The notes under the pieces: model-generated | What the model was told of the DNA's origin: nothing | Seen by the model: only the letters and a program-made list of their open reading frames with translations | The model's database searches: none | Program-made: the position numbers and the translations under genes | Shown: positions 4,800-45,539 of the stretch, piece by piece | How positions within the stretch are numbered: position 1 is the first letter of the stretch | Layout of the letters: each line of letters opens with the position of its first letter | DNA from: a virus | DNA length: 46,836 nt | IMG/VR virus record: IMGVR_UViG_3300044946_000051 | Span: 1 to 46,836 of that record | Reading direction: 5' to 3' (one strand)

Positions 4800-5471
4800 A
4801 TGACTCCACAACAATATCGGCCATCCAGCCGTAGCTGGATTAAACTTTGGGTTAACGAATGGCTCACTGGTACTGTGCGCTGGCAGTTAACGCCTCAGCA
4901 ACGCTCTATTTGGGCTGATTTGCTCGCGCTCGCTGGCCGCTCGCGCTTTCCCGGTATCGTTTGCTCTGGCGAGACGAATGGAACACTAGAACCTTTCCCG
5001 ATGGACTATCTCTGCTCAGTGTTCCGTTGCTCACTGAAGGACGCCAAGGCAGCTTTTGAACTCTACAAGGCGCAGGGCCGCATCTCGATAGACAAAACTG
5101 GCGTGATTCAAATTGTGAATTGGGACAAATATCAGTCCGAATATCAACAGAAACGCCAGCGCACGGCATACAAAGCCGCAAAAAGTATTTCAAATGTCCG
5201 CAAGAAGTCCGCTGTAGAGGTAGAAGGAGATAAAGAGGGAGAAAAATCATCGCCCCGACTGGATGACTTAAAAAAGTCCTTCCTGGCGAAGTGTCAAGAC
5301 CCTCAAGGAATCATCGCGGCCATCGTCGAGATTGTCTGTGAGCGAGCGGCCAAGAGTGGAGTGAAGATTCGGACAGAGAAGTACATTCAGAAGGCGGTTG
5401 AGTCCTTCGATACGGAGTCCGGGCAGGACAAAGAGGAATTGCAGCATCGGCTGAGAACGGTGCCGCTTTAG
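4800..5471 (+). CDS. Replisome-organiser-like replication initiator
   Basis: A 223-residue protein. Residues 10-110 resemble the N-terminal domain of phage replisome organisers (winged-helix, DnaD/DnaB-initiator type): SWIKLWVNEWLTG, LTPQQRSIWADLLALAGRS, then a block on cell-cycle-initiator-like FRCSLKDAKAAFELYKAQGRI ending NWDKYQSEYQ. A charged linker follows and a C-terminal helical domain. Such proteins bind the phage origin and recruit the host helicase. It has its own promoters and no Shine-Dalgarno. No phage helicase or polymerase is present, which fits host-dependent replication. Confidence 0.75.
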   Translation: MTPQQYRPSSRSWIKLWVNEWLTGTVRWQLTPQQRSIWADLLALAGRSRFPGIVCSGETNGTLEPFPMDYLCSVFRCSLKDAKAAFELYKAQGRISIDKTGVIQIVNWDKYQSEYQQKRQRTAYKAAKSISNVRKKSAVEVEGDKEGEKSSPRLDDLKKSFLAKCQDPQGIIAAIVEIVCERAAKSGVKIRTEKYIQKAVESFDTESGQDKEELQHRLRTVPL

Positions 5472-7262: not shown

Positions 7263-7805
7263 ATGAACGACGAGCAAATCAAGTACATGGTCAATCGGTT
7301 TCTCACTTGGCGGTTGCCTGAAAACTTCAATCCAGACGCTGGTATCAGCTTCAAGCGTGAATACAATGAGAATACGCCTTGGCCGATGAAGAATGAGCCA
7401 GTAGGGACGAATTTGTTTGACGCCACGCAAGCAGAAGAAATGATTCGCTATTTGCTTGAGGGACTGCCAGCGGCAAGTGACAGCGGGAGCGGGCAGGCGA
7501 TGGGTTATCAAGGCGATGCAGAGGCATTCCGCCAAGCGATGCAACAGCATCGTGAAATTGCAATGAAAATTGGGTGGTGCCAAGGAGAAACATTCGACGA
7601 AGCATTAGAGCGTTACGTAAGCGAACGTCTCGCCTCCGCGCCAGCCGACGCCGAGAAGGAGTTGCGGGCGAAGGTGAATAGCTTGCCGCAGATTCGTTAC
7701 GTTTCGAGCGGAGATGATACAGAGCCAAGCGGATATTATGTGCCGCTAGACGCCGTGCTCGCGCTTCTCAGCGAGGGGCAGCCGGGAGAAGGGACAAAGG
7801 AATGA
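7263..7805 (+). CDS. Conserved phage protein (MNDEQIKYMVNRFLTW family)
   Basis: ATG 7263 follows an AGGAGG ribosome site; ATG 7230 in the same frame overlaps the previous gene. The 180-residue product opens with MNDEQIKYMVNRFL, RLPENFNPDAGISFKR and PMKNEPVGTNLFDATQAEEMIRYLLEGLP, a pattern I have seen in many phage and prophage proteins of unknown role. A second half with EALERYVSERLA and a C-terminal helix follows. It overlaps the exonuclease gene by four bases. Confidence 0.65.
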   Translation: MNDEQIKYMVNRFLTWRLPENFNPDAGISFKREYNENTPWPMKNEPVGTNLFDATQAEEMIRYLLEGLPAASDSGSGQAMGYQGDAEAFRQAMQQHREIAMKIGWCQGETFDEALERYVSERLASAPADAEKELRAKVNSLPQIRYVSSGDDTEPSGYYVPLDAVLALLSEGQPGEGTKE

Positions 7806-8296
7806 GATATTTTCTAGACACTGAGTTTATTGAGAATGGCCCACAGTTCCCGCTAATTCTGCTTTCTATCGGCATTGTTTCGGAGACTGGCGCGGAGTTC
7901 TACGCCGTCAACGAAGATGCTCCGCTAGAGTTGGCAAATGACTGGGTGAAGGTGAACGTTATCCCGCACCTTGGCGATGAGTACAAGGTGCCCATCAAGC
8001 AAATAGGCCCACGCATTCTGCACTGGGTATACGACAAAGAGAAGCCGGAGTTCTGGGGCTACTACGCCGATTACGATTGGGTTGTGTTCTGTCAGCTATT
8101 CGGGACGATGATGGACCTGCCGAAGGGCTGGCCGATGTATTGCCGCGACATCAAGCAGCTCTGCGACTCGCTAGGCAATCCGAAATTGCCGAAGCAAACA
8201 TCAACCGAGCACAACGCTCTAGAAGATGCGCGATGGAATAAGCAGGCGTTTGAGTTCTTGAGCCCCGCGCCCCTCGCAGAGAAAGGCAGCAAATGA
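7802..8296 (+). CDS. DEDDh-type 3'-5' exonuclease (Rv2179c-like)
   Basis: A 164-residue RNase-H-fold protein with all four acidic/His motifs: Exo I as LDTEF (D6, E8), an Asp in the YYADYDW block near residue 94 (Exo II), and Exo III as EHNALEDARWN with its His and Asp. It matches the short phage exonucleases related to mycobacterial Rv2179c, which act 3'-5' on RNA or DNA ends. ATGA coupling with the preceding gene fixes the start at 7802. Confidence 0.82.
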   Translation: MRYFLDTEFIENGPQFPLILLSIGIVSETGAEFYAVNEDAPLELANDWVKVNVIPHLGDEYKVPIKQIGPRILHWVYDKEKPEFWGYYADYDWVVFCQLFGTMMDLPKGWPMYCRDIKQLCDSLGNPKLPKQTSTEHNALEDARWNKQAFEFLSPAPLAEKGSK

Positions 8297-9688: not shown

Positions 9689-9850
9689 GTTCGGCTCCAA
9701 ACGAGCGCAGGAGGCCCCGGCGAATGGGTCCTACCGGGCTTGGGGTGGATTTGGAAAAATTTTAGAGGCCATAAGACAAAAATCAAAAGTCAAAAACTTC
9801 CTGCTTTTTTGAGAGTAACAAAAACTCCCAAAACGCCACGACTAGTAGTA

Positions 9851-9902
9851 ACGGGATACTGGTACCTAGACACCCAGCAACCGTCTGAGACCAATATCCC
9901 GT
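9851..9902 (+). repeat. Imperfect inverted repeat (11 of 12 bp)
   Basis: ACGGGATACTGG at 9851-9862 and CCAATATCCCGT at 9891-9902 pair with one mismatch around a 28-base loop. No U-tract follows. Candidate RNA structure or operator pair. Confidence 0.65.
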
Positions 9903-9923
9903 TTCGCATGGTTGACTGACAGA

Positions 9924-9943
9924 CTACAGTGTAGAATCTACAG
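9924..9943 (+). promoter_or_regulatory. Overlapping palindromes, operator candidate
   Basis: CTACA-G-TGTAG (9924-9934) overlaps TGTAGA-A-TCTACA (9930-9942), so CTACAG occurs twice as a direct repeat with the complement between. The overlapped TAGAAT (9932-9937) could itself be a -10 box, which would make this a repressor-occluded promoter. Confidence 0.4.
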
Positions 9944-10038
9944 GAAAACCGTTTCCCATGTCAAGACAAATCGCGTAATTTTTACAGGTACTACTAGTTA
10001 CATTTCCACAGGCAGGATATTTTCACCCCATTATCCTC

Positions 10039-10067
10039 TTGCATTGCTACACACTACATTCTACTCT
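10039..10067 (+). promoter_or_regulatory. Possible promoter of the MoxR-VWA operon
   Basis: TTGCAT at 10039-10044, a 17-base spacer and TACTCT at 10062-10067. The same -35 variant is used before the gene at 12340. The -10 match is weak. Confidence 0.35.
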
Positions 10068-10128
10068 ACTGGAACGGGTGTCTATCGCATGGACAGCCGA
10101 ATTCAAAACTCGAAAAGGAAAAACTGAC

Positions 10129-10824
10129 ATGATTACACAAATGAACGCATGGACTCTTCTGGATACCGCAATGCGGCACCTTAGGGTTGTTTGCGTTTGT
10201 GGCAAGCCCGGTATCGGAAAGACGTTTACCGCGCAAGGTGGATCACACCCCACCAACACGGTCTCTTTAAATCTGTCAGAGGATACCGTCGTTCAGGAAT
10301 TATTCGGACATTACATCCCGGAAGGAAATGCCTTTGTCTACCACGACGGACCTGTAGTGACGGCGTTCCGCGAAGGAAAGACACTTGTTATCAATGAACT
10401 GTCTAGGGCATCGGGAGCTGTGAAAGACGCCTTACTGTCCATTCTTGACAGCAAGGACTCCGCGCGAATTACTCTCGCGGACGGGGAGACCGTCACGGCC
10501 AGCAAGAATTTTCGAGCAGTCATTACTTCAAATGACAGCGCGGACGAACTCGATCCTGCCTTGCGGGACCGTTGCGAGACGGTTATCAATCTGACTGATC
10601 CACACCCCGGACTTATTTCCGCACTAAATACCGCATGGGCAGGACTAGGCGATGCGGTAAAAGACTCATGGAAAGACACGTCCCGCGCTATCTCGACTAG
10701 GGCAAGCTTTGCCTACGCCAAGCTCAGGAATGCAGGCGTAGCGCAAGACACTGCCGCGATACTGGCCTATTCCGAGCGTGCCAAAGACATAACCGACACG
10801 TTCAAACTGCGGGGTGTGCTGTGA
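10129..10824 (+). CDS. MoxR-like AAA+ ATPase
   Basis: I place the start at ATG 10129 (AAAAGGAAAAA upstream), giving 231 residues; a longer frame from 10039 has no ribosome site. Walker A is GKPGIGKT (25-32), Walker B TLVINE (85-90), sensor 1 VITSN (131-135) and an Arg-finger-like LRDRCE (145-150). ELSRAS and the insert before sensor 1 are typical of the MoxR/dynein-related AAA_5 group. These ATPases usually work as chaperone-like remodelers with a VWA partner. The next gene, overlapping by four bases, is exactly such a partner. Leucine CTA codons and CTAG sites are unusually frequent here compared with the head genes. Confidence 0.85.
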   Translation: MITQMNAWTLLDTAMRHLRVVCVCGKPGIGKTFTAQGGSHPTNTVSLNLSEDTVVQELFGHYIPEGNAFVYHDGPVVTAFREGKTLVINELSRASGAVKDALLSILDSKDSARITLADGETVTASKNFRAVITSNDSADELDPALRDRCETVINLTDPHPGLISALNTAWAGLGDAVKDSWKDTSRAISTRASFAYAKLRNAGVAQDTAAILAYSERAKDITDTFKLRGVL

Positions 10825-12071
10825 TTCCTCAAATACTCAAAAAACGCGCAAGGGACAGAAAAACCATCCCGGTCCCGGCCGTAGCAGGCAGGGGAAACGG
10901 AGAATATGAGATAAATGACAATCCTATTGACGGCGCCGCTGGAGCAACGTCTTTCAGTGGGCGTAAGTTTTATGTCCCGCTATCCAGCGCGGATAAGGAT
11001 CAGGCTGTCCGCGCGCATGAATACGCTCATCTGGCCGTTGACGCGATAGTCCCGGACATAGGCCGGACGTTCCATTGCGCATCGAACGGCTGGGTGCAAT
11101 GCGTGCTAGACAACGTTGTAAACGGATTCGCGTTTGCAAACGGGGTGGACAGCATCAAACACTTGCCCATGCCTGCCCTAGCGGAAGATATCCCCGCAGA
11201 ACAGGTCCGCGAGATACACGCGCAAAGGGCACTCCAGATTCTCAGCGTAAAACCGTCTGTCAAAGGCAAAGACCTGAACGCGCGGGACCTAAATGTACTC
11301 AAAACGGCCAGCGTAAAACTCCGCGCTATTGGTGCTGGCATGAAAGGCAAAAAAGCCATTCCGCCTAGCGTGACAGACCAGATTATCTTGACGGCCAAAA
11401 GCCTAGAAAAATACTTCGAAACCCCGCAAGACATGGAACGCGTGGACCTAGGCGAACTGGACGAGCATGGCGATAAAACCATGCCGCGTCTCTTTTATGA
11501 AGCACCAGAATGGTGCGACATGGAAATTGTCAAACCTAACCTAGACAAGTCTATTTCGCGGATGAGACTAGGCCACAAACGCAAGGCAGGGTTTCTGGGA
11601 GCATTCCGTAATCCCTTGCGTGCTCTTTTGCCTGCCTTTGACGGCATGGCATGGGACCGTAAAGTCCCTAGCATCGGCGGCAACATTCTTATCGATATGT
11701 CTGGCTCCATGCACTTGTCCGGTACGGACCTAGTGGAACTACTGAGAACAGCTCCAGCCGCAACCATAGCGGGATATTGTTCAGACTGCGTAAAAGACGG
11801 TTGGTTAATCATTCTAGCCGCAAACGGACGCTATACGTCTGATCCTCAGGCTATAGGATCAGGCAATGGGGTTGACGGACCTGCCCTAGAATGGCTGGCC
11901 AGACAGCGCGGACCGAAAGTCTGGATATGCGACGGCATGGTAACGGGAGTAAAGGACGCGCGACACCCCTTACTTACGCTCGAATGCCGCAACAAATGCG
12001 CAGAGAATAATATTCTCTACGTTTCCAGCCTACGCGAGTACTTTTCACTAGCAACCAAGGTGAAACCATGA
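10821..12071 (+). CDS. Metallopeptidase-like/VWA protein, partner of the MoxR ATPase
   Basis: A 416-residue product from GTG 10821. The N-terminal domain has the zinc-protease motif HEYAH (66-70) followed by QCVLDNVVNGF (93-103), which fits the putative metallopeptidase domain that precedes VWA-like domains (DUF2201 N-terminal type). The C-terminal part carries a MIDAS motif NILIDMSGSM (D292, S294, S296) and a later CDGMVTG (D371), typical of VWA. MoxR-VWA pairs couple ATP hydrolysis to target remodelling; here a protease-like domain is added. It is translationally coupled to the ATPase and shares ATGA with the 60-aa gene. Confidence 0.8.
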   Translation: MIPQILKKRARDRKTIPVPAVAGRGNGEYEINDNPIDGAAGATSFSGRKFYVPLSSADKDQAVRAHEYAHLAVDAIVPDIGRTFHCASNGWVQCVLDNVVNGFAFANGVDSIKHLPMPALAEDIPAEQVREIHAQRALQILSVKPSVKGKDLNARDLNVLKTASVKLRAIGAGMKGKKAIPPSVTDQIILTAKSLEKYFETPQDMERVDLGELDEHGDKTMPRLFYEAPEWCDMEIVKPNLDKSISRMRLGHKRKAGFLGAFRNPLRALLPAFDGMAWDRKVPSIGGNILIDMSGSMHLSGTDLVELLRTAPAATIAGYCSDCVKDGWLIILAANGRYTSDPQAIGSGNGVDGPALEWLARQRGPKVWICDGMVTGVKDARHPLLTLECRNKCAENNILYVSSLREYFSLATKVKP

Positions 12072-12250
12072 CACGCAAACACTTCATTGCCCTAGCCGAT
12101 GCACTCAGGTCCGCGAGACCGGCGGAAACGCCTAATATCAACCCCGACATGGCGCAATGGGAACTGGATTGCAGGCGAATCGCGGATGCCTGCAAGCAAT
12201 TCAATCCCTACTTTCAGAGCGAAAAATTCCTAGCCTACACGCGCAAGTAG
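12068..12250 (+). CDS. Conserved small protein (MTRKHF family)
   Basis: A 60-residue protein sharing ATGA with the VWA gene. The pattern MTRKHFIALADALRSARP, a central QWELDCRRIADACKQFNP and a closing FLAYTRK is a small family I recognise from many phages and plasmids without a known role. It is the last gene before a strong terminator, so it belongs to the same transcript as the ATPase and VWA protein. Confidence 0.7.
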   Translation: MTRKHFIALADALRSARPAETPNINPDMAQWELDCRRIADACKQFNPYFQSEKFLAYTRK

Positions 12251-12269
12251 CAGAAAACACTCAAACCTA

Positions 12270-12300
12270 GGCCAGAGCCTAAAAACTCTGGCCTTTTTTC
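12270..12300 (+). terminator. Rho-independent terminator
   Basis: A perfect 8-bp stem GGCCAGAG (12270-12277) and CTCTGGCC (12286-12293) with an eight-base loop, followed by TTTTTTC. It ends the MoxR-VWA operon 20 bases after its last stop codon and separates it from packaging genes. Confidence 0.93.
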
Positions 12301-16535: not shown

Positions 16536-16811
16536 TTGGAGTCGCACCTAGTTTGCTATATCTCAAGCGGACTTTTGGCACTTCTGTTGGCAATCCAGCA
16601 GTATCAGCACAACCGGACAAACAGGGGGCTGATCGACAAGATACTCGAAAGCCGGGGCCTGACAAGCCTGCCTGACGAGCACCCGCTAGTGGAAACGGTG
16701 AAGAGCCTGACGAAAAGTACTAATGAGCCGCTGACGGAGAAACGGAAAGCAGAGATGCTTCAGCGCGTCCGTTTCAACATCCCGAACATGCCGATTCTGA
16801 AAGGTAAGTAA
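16536..16811 (+). CDS. Small membrane-anchored protein upstream of portal
   Basis: TTG 16536 is preceded by a perfect AAGGAGG at seven bases, which decides the start. The 91-residue product has an N-terminal transmembrane helix (LVCYISSGLLALLLAI) and a charged helical rest ending NMPILKGK. The stop overlaps the portal ATG. An alternative frame from 16493 (60 codons) looks less protein-like after its first 15 residues. Confidence 0.6.
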   Translation: MESHLVCYISSGLLALLLAIQQYQHNRTNRGLIDKILESRGLTSLPDEHPLVETVKSLTKSTNEPLTEKRKAEMLQRVRFNIPNMPILKGK

Positions 16812-19234
16812 TGGCCGGAACAGTCAGCGGAATCATGCAGAAAGTCACTTCGCTCTTTAAGGGCGGAAGTGATTCTCTTGTCCGCGACAAGCAGGAAAAG
16901 CAGGATAAGCGCAGTATTGTTCCCAGTTACCCGTGGGACAAGCCCATCGAGGAAAGAATAAAATGGATGCTGGACCAGCGCTACTGGAAGCTCCAGTACG
17001 AGAAACTCCAGCTCCACCGCAAATGGTTCCGCAACCATCTTTTCTTCACCGGCTACCACGATTCTGTTTTATCGGACATCGGGTTTTCCTTCGACAGCAT
17101 CGGCGTGAATTCGGCAGAGTATGGGTTTGCTTCGAACTACTACAGGAGTTATATCCGCTATGGCGCAGCCATGTACGTCCAAACGGCCCCGGAGTTTATT
17201 GCTCAACCCAACTCTCCTGATGCGGAATCTCAGGGCGTTGCGGAGGCGGCTAGGGCTGCACTGGAAATATCCAAGGAAAATATTGGCTATGATGCAATCC
17301 GGGCACGCGAGGCGACTAACCTTCGTCTCTTTGGAAACTCCTTCCGTTACAACTACTATTCCATTGATCCTCGCTACGGATTCGTCACGCAGCCCGTCTA
17401 CGAAGATGTCGAAGTGCAAATCTCAGAAGGCTCTTGGCAATGCCCTATTTGCGGGCTACAGGGAGAAGGTCAGCAAACAGTTTGCCCGGCCTGCGGCCCT
17501 GATGCGCCTGCTCCGCCGATAAATACTCCCCCACAAACAGCGCAAGTCCCGCAGATGAAAGGGAAAGTCGCTTATCCGAAAGGACAGGAAGTCTGCGAAT
17601 GTATCTGGCCATTCGAGATTTACGTGCGTTCATCGGTCAAGAATCTTCGGGAAGCCCCGGAACTCCTGCGTGTGAGGATGGTGGATTCGGTTGCCCTTCA
17701 TGCGAATTTCCCGAAAGCGAAATTCGGCGGAATGCAATCGGCGGGCGAAGGCGTGAACGTCAGCGAGGACATCGGCCTCGTCTACCAAGAGGCCATTCCC
17801 GACTTGCCTTCCGACCCCACGCAATATCCAGGCTGGTATGAACGAGCCGTCGCGCAGCAGAAAAAGACCTTGATTCAGGGCTGGATTCGGCCAAGCCAGT
17901 ATTTCTTTGACGATGAGATGCGGAAACTTTTCCCGGTTGGACTTTACGCCGGGAAAGCCGATGATTGCCTGCTCGAAACCAGAAACGAATCAATGGACGA
18001 CCACTGGACGCATTTCAAGCACATCCACGTGGAAGGGCGATTCTGGGGCGATGGCGACGACGACCTTATTCCTCTTCAGATGCAGTTCGATGAATGCGAC
18101 CGGATGCTCATGCGGCATGTGGATTACAACACCATGCCATTGCTTCTCGCGGACACGCAGAAAATCGATAAGAACAACATCATCCGCGACGGCGGCTACA
18201 TGATTGAGTGCAAGAATCTCGGACAGAGAAACATCGACCAAGCCGTGAAATGGCACCCTGGAGGACAGATTAGCCCGGATGTCTGGAATTGGAAAAACAC
18301 CCGCTTGCAGGATATGCAGTTCCACTCCGGCGTAAGCCCTGCCGCCATCGGCCAGCACGAAGAGGGCATCAACACATTCGGAGGCCAGCAGACAGCGGCG
18401 TCGCAGGCTCAAGGGATGCTCGCTCCCTTGCAGCTCATGTATAAGGAAGAAAACGAACTCTGGGCCATGCAGATGACGAAACTCGATTGCGAGAACTGGC
18501 TCGACGACAGAGTGCAAGCCACGATGGGACAGAACGGCCAGTGGGAATTCAAAATGCTGCGCGGGGAGATGCTGAAGCTCGACGGCATCCGCTGGGTGGC
18601 GCGAATCGTTCCGCTCGACCCGTCGAAGCAGCAAAATCTCGTTCAGGCTATTTCAGCCGGAGCTTTCAATCCGCAGTTGCCGCAAGCGGTGCAAAACAAA
18701 GTCTTGGAGCTTTACCAACTTTCTCCCGATCTCAGCCCGAACGCTCGTGACCAGAAACTTCAGGCAAAAGAAATTCAGCAAGGCAAAGTCGGGCAAAAAA
18801 TACAGGTTCCCCCGACGCCACAGAATCCTCAGGGCGGAACCATGACGCAGTGGCCGGAGCCGATGCTGGCCCGCGACAATGACCCCGTGCATATCCAAGC
18901 GCTTACCGACTGGATGAAATCGGACGATTGGGATACGCAGCCACCGGAAGTTCAGGCCGGAGCGCAGGACCATTTGCATAAGCACCTGATGAACATGCAG
19001 AAAATGGCGCAGATTCAGGGAGCGATTCAAGGGGCGGGACAGGAAGCTGGAGGCCAGCCGCAGAAACCCGGTGAACAGACTTCGCCACAGCAAAGACAGG
19101 CTGCTGGGCAGCATAAAGGCAACGCCATGAAGCCACATCAGCCACAGCCGTCAGGGGGCAATGGGTCGCATATCGGCCCACGCGGGCAGTCTCATTCCGC
19201 GCAGCAAAGACGGAGAAACGGCAGGAGCGGTTGA
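16811..19234 (+). CDS. Portal protein (P22-type, long)
   Basis: An 807-residue portal. The N-terminus has the helical RIKWMLDQRYWKLQYEKLQLHRKWFRNHLFFTGYH; mid-protein HWTHFKHIHVEGRFWGDGDDDLIPLQMQFDECDRMLMRHVDYNTMP and GVSPAAIGQHEEG...FGGQQTAASQAQGMLAP are typical of large P22-like portals. Residues 211-228 insert a four-Cys zinc ribbon (CPIC...CPAC). The last 110 residues are Gln/Gly/Pro-rich. It forms the dodecameric ring through which DNA is packaged and ejected. Length and family point to a short-tailed phage. Confidence 0.88.
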   Translation: MAGTVSGIMQKVTSLFKGGSDSLVRDKQEKQDKRSIVPSYPWDKPIEERIKWMLDQRYWKLQYEKLQLHRKWFRNHLFFTGYHDSVLSDIGFSFDSIGVNSAEYGFASNYYRSYIRYGAAMYVQTAPEFIAQPNSPDAESQGVAEAARAALEISKENIGYDAIRAREATNLRLFGNSFRYNYYSIDPRYGFVTQPVYEDVEVQISEGSWQCPICGLQGEGQQTVCPACGPDAPAPPINTPPQTAQVPQMKGKVAYPKGQEVCECIWPFEIYVRSSVKNLREAPELLRVRMVDSVALHANFPKAKFGGMQSAGEGVNVSEDIGLVYQEAIPDLPSDPTQYPGWYERAVAQQKKTLIQGWIRPSQYFFDDEMRKLFPVGLYAGKADDCLLETRNESMDDHWTHFKHIHVEGRFWGDGDDDLIPLQMQFDECDRMLMRHVDYNTMPLLLADTQKIDKNNIIRDGGYMIECKNLGQRNIDQAVKWHPGGQISPDVWNWKNTRLQDMQFHSGVSPAAIGQHEEGINTFGGQQTAASQAQGMLAPLQLMYKEENELWAMQMTKLDCENWLDDRVQATMGQNGQWEFKMLRGEMLKLDGIRWVARIVPLDPSKQQNLVQAISAGAFNPQLPQAVQNKVLELYQLSPDLSPNARDQKLQAKEIQQGKVGQKIQVPPTPQNPQGGTMTQWPEPMLARDNDPVHIQALTDWMKSDDWDTQPPEVQAGAQDHLHKHLMNMQKMAQIQGAIQGAGQEAGGQPQKPGEQTSPQQRQAAGQHKGNAMKPHQPQPSGGNGSHIGPRGQSHSAQQRRRNGRSG

Positions 19235-25694: not shown

Positions 25695-28324
25695 TGGCTG
25701 AGAGACGCAGAGCGCCGCAAGAGTTCGAGCAGACCCAGAACGAAGCAGGCCCGCGAGTACTTACGCTTGATTCCTTAGTGGGGGGTTACAACGGCTATAC
25801 GTCTCCCGATCTGCTCACCCCGCAATTCTGGGCAGCATCCTCACAAGTCTATGCCGGGCAGTTCGGGACGATTCGCCGCGCTCGCTGGGCACCGTTTTTT
25901 AACAATACCGCCTCTGGCTTCACGGCTCACGCGCAGCGCATCGTCTCGATGTTTTCGTTTTTAGACCCCACCCTCCTAGGATTCCCTCCCAATCAGTTCA
26001 CCGTCAATCGCGTACTTTTCGATAACAATGATGATGTGACTTGGCCGCGATGGGTTTCGAACAATCCGCTTTCCGCGTCGGGAATGGTGGCAGCGGTACT
26101 GACACAGCCGCTTGATGAGGTGTGGGACCGGTTCATAGGGCAGCAACCCAGTGCGGACTTTCCTTTTGCCCTTTCTATCTTGAATGGGCCGTGGATGAGG
26201 ACCAGAATCGGAAACGCCATCTATGAAACAAACGGGCAATTCCGGTGCAAGACAGTTCCTAATACCATTGTCGAATCATCTCCTCTTTTTATGTTCTGGG
26301 GCTTGGATGCTCCAGACGTATCTCCTGGAATTACGCTTGTTGCAGGTTCGACCGCGACAATCGTAGCGGCTACCGGGGCTGTCCGCGCCAATAATATTGT
26401 CACAATCACAACGACCGCTGCCCTCTCAGCGGGGATGGTCACAGGAGTCTATGTCCAGATTGCAGGTGTGACCGATACGACCTTCGACACAGCGGCAGGT
26501 GTAGCCGTTCAAATAACTGTAACTGGAGGTTCTTCTTTTACCTTTCCGCAAGTCGGCGCTGCATCCACGAGTGGCAGCGGAACAGTGACGCTGGGCATCA
26601 CGAAAACGATTGGGCGTTCCTATCAATGGGCTTGGGAAGCGGATATTAATAGCGAAACTTCGGCCCCCTCTCCAGCTTCGCAATTCGTGAAATACACCAA
26701 TCAGACTGGGACGATTGACTTGGTGGAAACAGGTACGGTAAGCGTCGTGTCGGGTAATACTGGAGTGACCGGAGTTGGAACGTCATTCAGTCCTGCTTGG
26801 GTTGGCAGAGCGCTTTGGGTAGAGGGCGCTCCGGGACTTGGTAACTACATTGTCTCGGTCGCAAGCGCCACGTCTATGACACTCAAGAATGGCTATTCCG
26901 CAGGCACCATTGGCGGTGCGCGGTTTCAGGTATATGACCCGCAGATACTTAATGCCTTCCCTCCAGGTGAAGGATTCGTAAAACTCTACGCCACAGGAGA
27001 TGGGCAACCTGTTTATTTCCTAATTGGACGTAACGCTTTTAATCCAAATGGCACAACAGCGCTTTTGGCAGGGCTTGAATTCAATGATACGGCTAACTCC
27101 GAGCCTCCGAATCCTCCATTCACCAGCGAAATCACGCAGATTTACAACGTTCCTCCGCCTATTGGGAAGTTCTGCCAGGACTATCAAGGGCGCGTGCTCG
27201 TCTATGGCGTTGTGGCCAATCTCCAGACTTTCTTCTACTCGAACATCGAAGCCACGGTTATTGGCCAGCCCCCAGAATGCTTTTCTCCATTGAATACCGT
27301 GACCATGCCTCTCGGAGACGGGCAACTGAACGGTATGTCGAACCTACCAACGGGACTCATTATTTGGTCCAGCCGTCAGGACATGTACAAGCTGACCGGC
27401 CTACTCAGCGACAACACCATTGCGAATCCGGCCCAGTTGGCAGCGACGATTCAAAGGCTTCCTTACAAGATTGGCTGTGCTTCGCCTTACGCCACGGCAG
27501 TTACTCCTCTCGGCGCGATCTGGCTTTCCTCCGACCGCGAAGTATGGCTCTTTACCGACCACTACGCTCCCAAGAATGTGGGCAAGCCTGTTCAGGATGT
27601 GCTTAATCGCATCAACGGAGCGCGACTGGGATTCGCCAAGATGCAGTTCTACAAGCGCGGCGACAGGTCCTGGCTGGCCCTTGCTCTGGCTCTTGACTCT
27701 TCGACCTTCAATAACAAGTTGCTTTTGCTCGACCTCGACCTTCTGGCCTCGAACGGCGCTCCCAGCTACTTCACCTTCGATATGGCGACGAACGCGCCGA
27801 CGTGGTATCAGTTCGACATCAACTGCGAAAGCATCATCACCAGCTACGACAACAATTCGACAAACCATCTCTTCGTGGGCGACGTGGACCTGATTACCGA
27901 CGTGGACTGGCAGCCAAGCTACTTCACGATTGGCGCGGAGCAGAGCATTCCAACTCCCGGCGTCACGCTTCATGCCTTCGGCAACGAGGACCCGCACATG
28001 ATAAAGACCTTCGAATGGATGCGGGCGCTCACCAACCAGATTCCGAACAACCTGGCCTCCCAAGGCTGGGCTTGGGCCGTGAATGCCTTTGATGACGACA
28101 AGTTCGTGATTGGCGTGAATGCCTTGACCACGAATCTTATTCCGGGCGTGGATAGCAACTCAAATCCATTGTTTCTTGAATACTCCCCTGCTAAATTCAA
28201 GTTCGGCGGCTTCCGGCCAGTGAAGGGACGCAGGTTCCAGATTGGCACGACCTTCCCAACCGCTCCGGGACTGTACGAGTTGCGGGGATTCGAAGTGGCC
28301 TATACCGGGATAGTGGGGCGCTAA
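25694..28324 (+). CDS. Large tail/hub protein, beta-propeller-like
   Basis: An 876-residue protein from ATG 25694, where the start abuts the previous stop. After an N-terminal GPRVLTLDSLVGGYNGY, it carries two inserted beta modules: one about 215-310 and one about 340-420 (TGTVSVVSGNTGVTGVGTSF...IVSVASATSMTL). The remaining blocks such as LGAIWLSSDREVWLFTDHYAPKNVGKPVQDVLNRI are propeller-like, reminiscent of P22 gp10-class DNA stabilisation/hub proteins. It probably forms the tail hub that plugs the portal and binds the spikes. Confidence 0.6.
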   Translation: MAERRRAPQEFEQTQNEAGPRVLTLDSLVGGYNGYTSPDLLTPQFWAASSQVYAGQFGTIRRARWAPFFNNTASGFTAHAQRIVSMFSFLDPTLLGFPPNQFTVNRVLFDNNDDVTWPRWVSNNPLSASGMVAAVLTQPLDEVWDRFIGQQPSADFPFALSILNGPWMRTRIGNAIYETNGQFRCKTVPNTIVESSPLFMFWGLDAPDVSPGITLVAGSTATIVAATGAVRANNIVTITTTAALSAGMVTGVYVQIAGVTDTTFDTAAGVAVQITVTGGSSFTFPQVGAASTSGSGTVTLGITKTIGRSYQWAWEADINSETSAPSPASQFVKYTNQTGTIDLVETGTVSVVSGNTGVTGVGTSFSPAWVGRALWVEGAPGLGNYIVSVASATSMTLKNGYSAGTIGGARFQVYDPQILNAFPPGEGFVKLYATGDGQPVYFLIGRNAFNPNGTTALLAGLEFNDTANSEPPNPPFTSEITQIYNVPPPIGKFCQDYQGRVLVYGVVANLQTFFYSNIEATVIGQPPECFSPLNTVTMPLGDGQLNGMSNLPTGLIIWSSRQDMYKLTGLLSDNTIANPAQLAATIQRLPYKIGCASPYATAVTPLGAIWLSSDREVWLFTDHYAPKNVGKPVQDVLNRINGARLGFAKMQFYKRGDRSWLALALALDSSTFNNKLLLLDLDLLASNGAPSYFTFDMATNAPTWYQFDINCESIITSYDNNSTNHLFVGDVDLITDVDWQPSYFTIGAEQSIPTPGVTLHAFGNEDPHMIKTFEWMRALTNQIPNNLASQGWAWAVNAFDDDKFVIGVNALTTNLIPGVDSNSNPLFLEYSPAKFKFGGFRPVKGRRFQIGTTFPTAPGLYELRGFEVAYTGIVGR

Positions 28325-43767: not shown

Positions 43768-44499
43768 TCATGCCATACCTTGCACGGAATCCGCTAATAG
43801 ACCCGCCAAGTCAAGGCCCGAGGGTGCTCTCCCGCTTTGCTTCAACCATTCTAGCCCGATAAGCGCCTCCGCTTGGTCCGCCCAGCGCGAAACAAAGTCC
43901 CACCTTGCGTGGTAGACCTTGCCCCAGGAGACAATGGCTACTCCGTTGCGCCCGTAGCCGGAAACGTAGATGTAGTGGCCTTGGTTCGTCGGCTTATCGT
44001 TCGGCAGGAATTCCCATGTAGGGTCAATCCCTTGGTTGATTTGGTCCACCATCGACTGTGGCACGACGATGCCGAGGCCCATCCCGCCAAAGGTGTAGAT
44101 AGCCCCTTTGAGCTGGTCGATGTTGTTCAGATCGAGCGCCGCGTAGCCAGCCAGAACTTTGTTAGCCTTGTAAAAGGCAAAGCCCTCGTTCGGGTCGGTT
44201 CCTTGGTCGGTGGCTGGATTAGAAGGGTCATAGCCCGTGATGGCGCTGTAATCGGCAACTACCAGGTCCGTCGTAGCCAAGAGCGGGGAGCCGGCATTCG
44301 CTACCGCTTTCCACGTCATGCGCTGGTGCCAGATGCCAGCCTCGAAGCACAGTCCTAGAGAGTCGTTACCAAGCATTTGGTAGTCTATCGGCCGCTCGTA
44401 GGCACAGACTGGCGGAAACGCTATCTTGCTGGCGCTGCCGTAGTTGCTGAGAGCCAAGGCGTAGCGGTTGCGGATGTAGGGCTTTTTGCCGAACTTCAT
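43768..44499 (-). CDS. Papain-like/C39-type cysteine peptidase-like protein
   Basis: A 243-residue protein. NDSLGLCFEAGIWHQ (C51) occupies the place of the active-site Cys, and GHYIYVSGYGRNGVAIVSWGKVYH the His block; the central DYSAITGYDPSNPATDQGTDPNEGFAFYKANKV and GAIYTFGGMGLGIVVPQS are characteristic of a protein family frequent in soil bacteria and their phages. The Gly-Asp/Gln oxyanion residue before Cys is not standard, so activity is uncertain. Coupled by four bases to the methyltransferase gene upstream. Confidence 0.65.
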   Translation of the reverse strand: MKFGKKPYIRNRYALALSNYGSASKIAFPPVCAYERPIDYQMLGNDSLGLCFEAGIWHQRMTWKAVANAGSPLLATTDLVVADYSAITGYDPSNPATDQGTDPNEGFAFYKANKVLAGYAALDLNNIDQLKGAIYTFGGMGLGIVVPQSMVDQINQGIDPTWEFLPNDKPTNQGHYIYVSGYGRNGVAIVSWGKVYHARWDFVSRWADQAEALIGLEWLKQSGRAPSGLDLAGLLADSVQGMA

Positions 44500-45539
44500 C
44501 TCGCAACCTCTTGGAAATCCAATACTTCCTGAGAAAGCCTCTTGGCCGCTATCTCGCAGTACTTCTCTTCGATTTCTATGCCGACTCCTCGAGAGTGGTT
44601 TTTCTTCGCCACAAGTAGGGTTGTTCCAGTTCCCGCGAAAGGGTCAAGCACACAGTCCCCGGGCCCGGCGCCCGCCAGAATGCACGGCAGAATCAATTCC
44701 TCTGGATAGGTTGCTGTGTGGTCGCCTTCACCTTGCGCTGTAACGACGGTCCAAACTGTTCGCTTGTTGCGCTCTGTCACCGGCAAGCAGACCGCAGTCT
44801 CAAAACTAGGATTACTTTTCTCTATGCCAGGTGTCCCGGCCGCTGCCTTGCGCCCAACCGCTTTCATCGGACCATTCGTTTTCGCTCCGCCGTTCGCGCG
44901 ATGTGAGCCAATTTGTGCCGCGAGATTCTGACTGAGACGCATGTGCGTGTTTTTGCTGACGGGCTCGAGCGTGGCTTCCTGGTTGTAGTAATACTTCTCG
45001 GACCGGGAAAGCAAAAAGATGTATTCATGCGCTCCGGTAGGGCGGTCAGTAACCGATTCAGGCATCGTATTCGGCTTACTCCAAATGATGTCGCACCGCA
45101 GATACCAGCCATCCTCCTGCAGCCGAAAGGCGAGACGCCAGGGTAGACCGATGAGGTCTTTCTTTTTCAGATTCCAGCACGCGGGAGGCTTCCGATCTCG
45201 AGGACCGCCGCATACCGCAGAGTGGTTGTAATCTTGCGAGATGCCGCCGCCGCCCCATCCGTGACCGCCTGCAGCGTAAGTATCGCCACAGTTCACCCAC
45301 AGCGTTCCGTCCTCCGCAAGAATCCTTTGCACGTCCAAAAATATCGCACCGAGTTTTTCCAGCCATTCCGCCGGCGTCTCTTCCTGACCTATGCCTTCGG
45401 CCTCGCCGTAATCGCGGAGTCCCCAATAAGGAGGGGAGGTCACGCAACAGCGAATAGAATCACTCTCCAGCGTCGGCAGCACTTCTCTGCAATCCCCGTG
45501 GTAGATGGTGATTCCCGCATGCTGGTAGTAGGGCCTCAT
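44496..45539 (-). CDS. Site-specific DNA methyltransferase (N4-cytosine or N6-adenine, beta class)
   Basis: A 347-residue protein. Motif IV is TSPPYWGLRDYG (34-45) and the AdoMet motif I DPFAGTGTT (299-307), giving the circularly permuted order of the beta class. SPPY is commoner in N4-cytosine enzymes than DPPY-type N6-adenine ones. The central target-recognition part is about 150 residues (DRKPPACWNLKKKDLIG...). No restriction enzyme is adjacent, so it probably protects phage DNA or alters regulation. It starts immediately after the lipoprotein stop (TAAATG). Confidence 0.88.
   Translation of the reverse strand: MRPYYQHAGITIYHGDCREVLPTLESDSIRCCVTSPPYWGLRDYGEAEGIGQEETPAEWLEKLGAIFLDVQRILAEDGTLWVNCGDTYAAGGHGWGGGGISQDYNHSAVCGGPRDRKPPACWNLKKKDLIGLPWRLAFRLQEDGWYLRCDIIWSKPNTMPESVTDRPTGAHEYIFLLSRSEKYYYNQEATLEPVSKNTHMRLSQNLAAQIGSHRANGGAKTNGPMKAVGRKAAAGTPGIEKSNPSFETAVCLPVTERNKRTVWTVVTAQGEGDHTATYPEELILPCILAGAGPGDCVLDPFAGTGTTLLVAKKNHSRGVGIEIEEKYCEIAAKRLSQEVLDFQEVAR

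Follow-up and report, generated by a model that had tools for sequence, protein, structure and literature searches.

The DNA considered here is IMG/VR record IMGVR_UViG_3300044946_000051, a viral sequence of 46,836 bases, and the whole of this stretch is referred to as the window. At 10129-12250 it carries, as an earlier note on this DNA had described, genes for a MoxR-type AAA+ ATPase, for a protein joining an HEYAH sequence with a MIDAS motif, and for a 60-residue protein, the first two overlapping by 4 bases at 10821-10824 and the last two by 4 bases at 12068-12071 (Table 1). Searches with the window proteins returned a single contig with close relatives, the sister phage L002, and comparison with it shows purifying selection on each of the three genes (dN/dS about 0.07 for the ATPase, 0.19 for the VWA protein, and 0.13 for the third gene). 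The ATPase and its VWA partner constitute a genuine gene pair and probably a two-gene phage machine.

Table 1. Positions and properties of the features discussed in the text
Feature	Position	Strand	Details
MoxR-type AAA+ ATPase (gene 1)	10129..10824	+	ATG start, 231 aa, AAA_5
Motifs of the ATPase			Walker A GKPGIGKT; degenerate Walker B N89, E90; sensor 1 N135; R148, R191
HEYAH and VWA protein (gene 2)	10821..12071	+	GTG start, 416 aa
Domains of the 416-aa protein			N-terminal zincin-like, C-terminal VWA
HEYAH codons	11016..11030	+	residues 66-70, predicted helix 58-73
D97 codon	11109..11111	+	the one acidic position in predicted helix 89-106; possible third ligand, depending on the alignment
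MIDAS DMSGSM codons	11694..11711	+	residues 292-297; with D352 and D371
60-aa protein (gene 3)	12068..12250	+	co-transcribed, judged by position only
Intrinsic terminator	12269..12294	+	stem-loop, then T run; same hairpin in L002
Divergent intergenic control region	9701..10128	.	about 428 bp; partly conserved in L002
Inverted repeat	9850..9903	.	AACGGGATACTGGT ... ACCAATATCCCGTT; 14-nt arms, 93%
807-aa protein	16811..19234		sub-threshold match to a zinc ribbon of RanBP type, E = 4e-4
DNA methylase	44496..45539	-	N6_N4_Mtase, E = 1.2e-46; right end, opposite strand

The ATPase matches the Pfam family AAA_5 (E = 2e-19), and its nearest solved chains are midasin, followed by NorQ/CbbQ. Walker A and sensor 1 are present as previously recognized, but the Walker B motif recognized with them has Asn in place of Asp; this residue, at position 89, is Asp in 36 of 41 homologues and Asn in 5. 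Apart from this exchange, the protein has the Walker A, Walker B, sensor 1, and arginine finger elements of the MoxR clade, and Glu90, Asn135, Arg148, and Arg191 are invariant in all 41 homologues, as are the Gly and Lys columns. It should be noted, however, that a conserved Arg is replaced by Ala at position 187 (Ala in 2 of 41 members) and that the window member is on a long branch of the family tree; together with the Asn substituted for the Walker B Asp, these features suggest that activity of the window pair is not assured.

The 416-residue partner has no Pfam match at E ≤ 1 and no match to PF13203 (DUF2201 metallopeptidase-VWA) at E ≤ 10, and a structural model of it (pLDDT 68.7) gave uninformative Foldseek results. 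The VWA fold that had been proposed is borne out by a better modeled relative, L049 (pLDDT 86.7), for which the top Foldseek match is the RGLG1 MIDAS (probability 0.98); the matches to this model are to VWA domains only, and no zincin was found among them. The MIDAS residues Asp292, Ser294, Ser296, Asp352, and Asp371 (D/S/S/D/D) are unvarying in all 47 aligned members of the family, whereas HExxH is present in 33 and is replaced in the other 14 by sequences such as RExxR and YGxxL. On a tree of the VWA part, HExxH is a clustered trait with four changes, three of them forced by well supported branches. Because HExxH is missing from this many members and has changed at least three to four times, whereas the MIDAS is invariant, proteolysis looks optional, and the earlier suggestion of it as the core activity is not supported.

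The window protein itself has the HExxH of a zincin metallopeptidase and, encoded next to the ATPase, is a VWA partner with an intact MIDAS. Of the 33 members with HExxH, 31 also have EE.R[VI]N farther along the chain; in the proteins of the window and L002, V-L-D-N-[VI]-V-N stands in place of this second motif, which leaves Asp97 as the candidate ligand. The span 93-103, in which a third zinc ligand had been expected, does contain one acidic residue, Asp97, but its register is alignment-dependent, as Leu96, Asp97, and Val99 lie opposite the family EE.R in two alignments and are shifted in a third. Position 97 and HExxH are statistically associated (Fisher p = 2e-8), but with just three independent pairs on the tree this does not count as independent evidence. 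A zinc site composed of His66, Glu67, His70, and the acidic Asp97 is possible from these sequences. The alternative, that the pair is degenerate, with a zincin site that is dead in this phage and a protein that merely scaffolds the ATPase, has in its favor the long branch and the absence from the window and L002 proteins of the SP motif and of both acidic residues and the arginine of the family EExR; it is less likely than not, given that both sisters keep His66, Glu67, His70, and Asp97 and that purifying selection acts on the N-terminal part of the protein (dN/dS about 0.16).

The 60-residue protein is a member of a separate small phage family with the pattern MTRKHFIA...FN..F...F, and its relatives are found in other viral loci that have no VWA-family match. 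Because these loci lack the pair, the gene is best regarded as an independent small phage gene outside the conserved unit, and the three genes are not the self-contained cassette that the earlier note envisaged; with respect to the recurrence of the three-gene order that it anticipated, the pair does recur elsewhere but the 60-residue gene is no part of what is conserved. The strong terminator that it placed beyond this gene is present, and the same hairpin is found in L002. Upstream, where a control region of 440 bp had been described, there is indeed an intergenic stretch, between the ATG of the ATPase gene and a divergent minus-strand ORF that starts near 9700, but it is slightly shorter and only parts of it are conserved in L002. 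The core of its inverted repeat (AACGGGATA/TATCCCGT) is kept in L002, and the repeat is a possible operator. L002 thus retains the three genes, the terminator hairpin, and portions of the upstream region, but it is collinear with the window over this stretch, so that its conservation alone proves little. L002 is the 78,747-bp contig IMGVR_UViG_3300020579_000009 and contains two matches to the terminase large subunit (26586-27902 and 73493-74857); it may represent two joined phages or a composite genome.

The wider family was opened by a DNA motif scan for GNGVDGPA, which gave 83 viral loci, 10 of them chance hits. Homologues of the VWA protein (E < 1e-5) are encoded in 74 viral loci; in 61 of these the ATPase gene immediately precedes, and most of the other 13 are truncated at the edge of the locus. 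The motif biases these counts, which are minimum values. With identities of about 20-30%, the pair is found again in some 60 further viral loci. The earlier reading as a MoxR-VWA pair of chaperone type with a zincin-like N-terminal domain is supported, and the conserved unit is the ATPase and VWA pair, which is common in uncultivated viruses. No homologue was detected in isolate phages by tblastn with the VWA protein, L048, or the family consensus (the consensus against 50,697 records), or in plasmids by tblastn with P0002. Pfam does not recognize this family of VWA proteins. The only library families that match the two proteins substantially are PHROG 16448 (E = 1.9e-24) and PHROG 33218 (E = 1.7e-15), the latter match spanning the VWA part only and its family having no assigned function. 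The window genes upstream of the pair encode an ERF recombinase (728-1546), a phage replisome-organizer domain (4800-5471), and an exonuclease-like protein (7802-8296); near other viral copies there are exonuclease and annealing-protein families. The window pair is located just upstream of the terminase, but the distance between pair and terminase varies widely among phages.

The combination of a MoxR AAA+ protein with a VWA adaptor is shared with RavA-ViaA and NorQ/CbbQ-type systems; these are not known to contain a zincin domain. The present layout is already known, since such pairs have been reported in three studies (PMC7824862, PMC8651126, and PMC7911831), and the window pair is a divergent variant of it. 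In group 2.2 jumbo phages, a MoxR protein is found with a vWA protein fused to an N-terminal metallopeptidase, and a role in virion assembly was proposed (Iyer et al. 2021, PMC7824862); the adjacency of the two genes and the N-terminal metallopeptidase domain are alike, a match by architecture only, but the family described here is found both in phages with sizes of about 39-145 kb and on bacterial chromosomes, and it lacks HExxH in 14 of 47 members. Atu_ph07 was considered as a jumbo-phage example from that study and ruled out. AAA/vWA pairs are present in haloviruses (PMC7911831), and cobST pairs in many tailed viruses, the peptidase annotation of which has been called mistaken (PMC8651126). 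The breadth of the family, the loss of HExxH, and the chromosomal captures described below were not found in the open-access literature searched.

Phage CobS/CobT-like pairs, such as the cyanophage "peptidase" and CobS and gp68/gp69 of Gordonia phage DalanDe, likewise consist of an AAA_5 ATPase adjoining an HExxH...VWA protein, and the CobT-like proteins of S-WAM1 and DalanDe also carry HExxH and an ED.RIE motif. They differ in that the CobT-like partner has 581-725 residues, as compared with 416 in the window, and the gene order in S-WAM1 is reversed; a family HMM search did not detect the VWA domain in the CobT-like partner. The window ATPase matches phage CobS proteins, and the N-terminal domain of its partner aligns with the actinophage and cyanophage CobT-like proteins with an hhalign score of 35.8 (30 column shuffles gave no more than 15.8), although the full-length alignment with the S-WAM1 protein is poor. 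These similarities, with the abundance of viral cobST pairs (PMC8651126), are what would be expected of a cobaltochelatase helper of the CobST kind, raising the supply of cobalamin by way of the CobN of the host. However, there is no match to Pfam CobT in the window at E ≤ 1 and no CobT or CobS model among the matches of the 47 members, and most members keep HExxH, even if the peptidase annotation is regarded as an error (PMC8651126). CobN is present in 0 of 38 phage records and ribonucleotide reductase in 6 of 38, the records being incomplete and their hosts unidentified. Such a helper function is very improbable.

In bacterial genomes, scanning identified 33 loci, mainly in metagenome-assembled genomes (MAGs) of Actinomycetota on contigs of up to 392 kb; the pair is present in 8 of 148 genomes in the class of L121. 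In one group, the order is lexA (minus strand), LexA boxes, MoxR, VWA, two LexA boxes, LysM, NrdR, PIG-L, and DinB. Divergent lexA is retained in seven chromosomal loci, and in all of these two boxes, spaced by about 42 bp, precede MoxR; in six loci one box of the two is near-perfect. Strict LexA boxes number 44 in 188 kb, as against 0.3 in shuffles. In chromosomal loci without adjacent lexA, there are only downstream boxes, which by position belong to LysM, so that the prediction of SOS control of the pair is limited to those loci in which lexA adjoins it. In seven relatives from the same class that lack the pair, lexA stands without the two genes; six have LexA boxes there, and five have nrdR about 0.6-1 kb from lexA, indicating that the pair is an insertion at the lexA locus. 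In a second chromosomal group, the pair is flanked by a gene for a small VWA protein upstream and by one for a 411-residue protein downstream; in L101, L102, L103, and L106 the small VWA protein has ADASGSM and the 411-residue protein has no Pfam match. L100 and L103 are from MAGs titled Bifidobacterium breve, a label that looks wrong, as their copies cluster with those of freshwater actinobacteria. Of the chromosomal copies, 27 have a complete N terminus, and every one of them keeps HExxH.

In an 82-row tree, rooted by midpoint only and with some long branches that meet, the chromosomal copies fall into two clades, of 8 and 21 rows, that both lie within the phage diversity, and two changes between phage and chromosome are forced by starred branches. 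One of the clades is the one inserted at the lexA/LysM/nrdR/dinB locus. The simplest reading of this topology is two captures of the phage pair by cells, so that bacteria appear to have acquired it at least twice. A more elaborate proposal, which adds to such captures by Actinomycetota that one lineage placed the pair under LexA control in the SOS response, with an intact zincin unfolding and cutting a repressor or replisome protein upon DNA damage, and that the phage copies do the equivalent for phage replication, is rather unlikely as a whole. Neither in the window nor at other phage copies does the pair have LexA boxes nearby, and SOS control of the phage copy was rejected on this basis.

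The chromosomal copies also bear on a role in virion assembly, as a chaperone that also processes structural proteins by proteolysis, for at the SOS locus no virion genes were seen. This role was proposed for the jumbo-phage pair with the same MoxR and metallopeptidase-vWA layout, and the p618/p892 pair of the archaeal virus ATV acts in tail development (PMC7824862); the position of the window pair next to the terminase fits it as well, but the variable terminase distance in other phages does not, nor does processing fit the absence of HExxH from 14 of 47 members, so that it is unlikely. Lower still is the likelihood of an attack machine that unfolds and cleaves a protein of the host or a rival phage in host takeover, superinfection exclusion, or anti-defense, as the earlier note suggested. 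Although HEYAH and the acidic Asp97 would permit a zinc site, HExxH is dispensable in parts of the family, PADLOC gave only weak matches in the window (best E = 8e-4, TRIP13, with a low score), the neighbors lend no support, and long-term cellular retention at a housekeeping SOS locus is ill-suited to an anti-host weapon.

A role in DNA metabolism is favored over virion assembly because of the cellular SOS location, the DNA-metabolism genes of the window, the recombination genes near other copies, and the variable terminase distance. We therefore prefer, tentatively and with a likelihood a little short of even, the explanation that the pair is an ATP-dependent protein-remodeling machine, most probably acting on a phage or host protein of DNA replication, recombination, or repair. 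The MoxR-type protein would form a ring, and its ATP cycle would be passed to the VWA partner, which may grip the target through its MIDAS site; the zincin-like domain would bind the same target and may cut it where its site is intact. The target would be neither a virion part nor a defense protein. The link between remodeling and DNA metabolism is one that we infer from gene context, and it should be recognized that the position of the pair in cells is no direct guide to its target in phages, which counts against this explanation, as do the lack of LexA boxes at the phage pairs and the preponderance of phage neighbors with no known function.

The function of phage MoxR-VWA pairs, annotated as cobST or "peptidase," has been the subject of three conflicting published readings, cobalamin synthesis, virion assembly, and chaperone activity. 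The chromosomal branch beside lexA, nrdR, and dinB points the question of function to DNA-damage physiology, and the repeated loss of HExxH alongside an invariant MIDAS separates a core activity, remodeling, from an optional one, cleavage.
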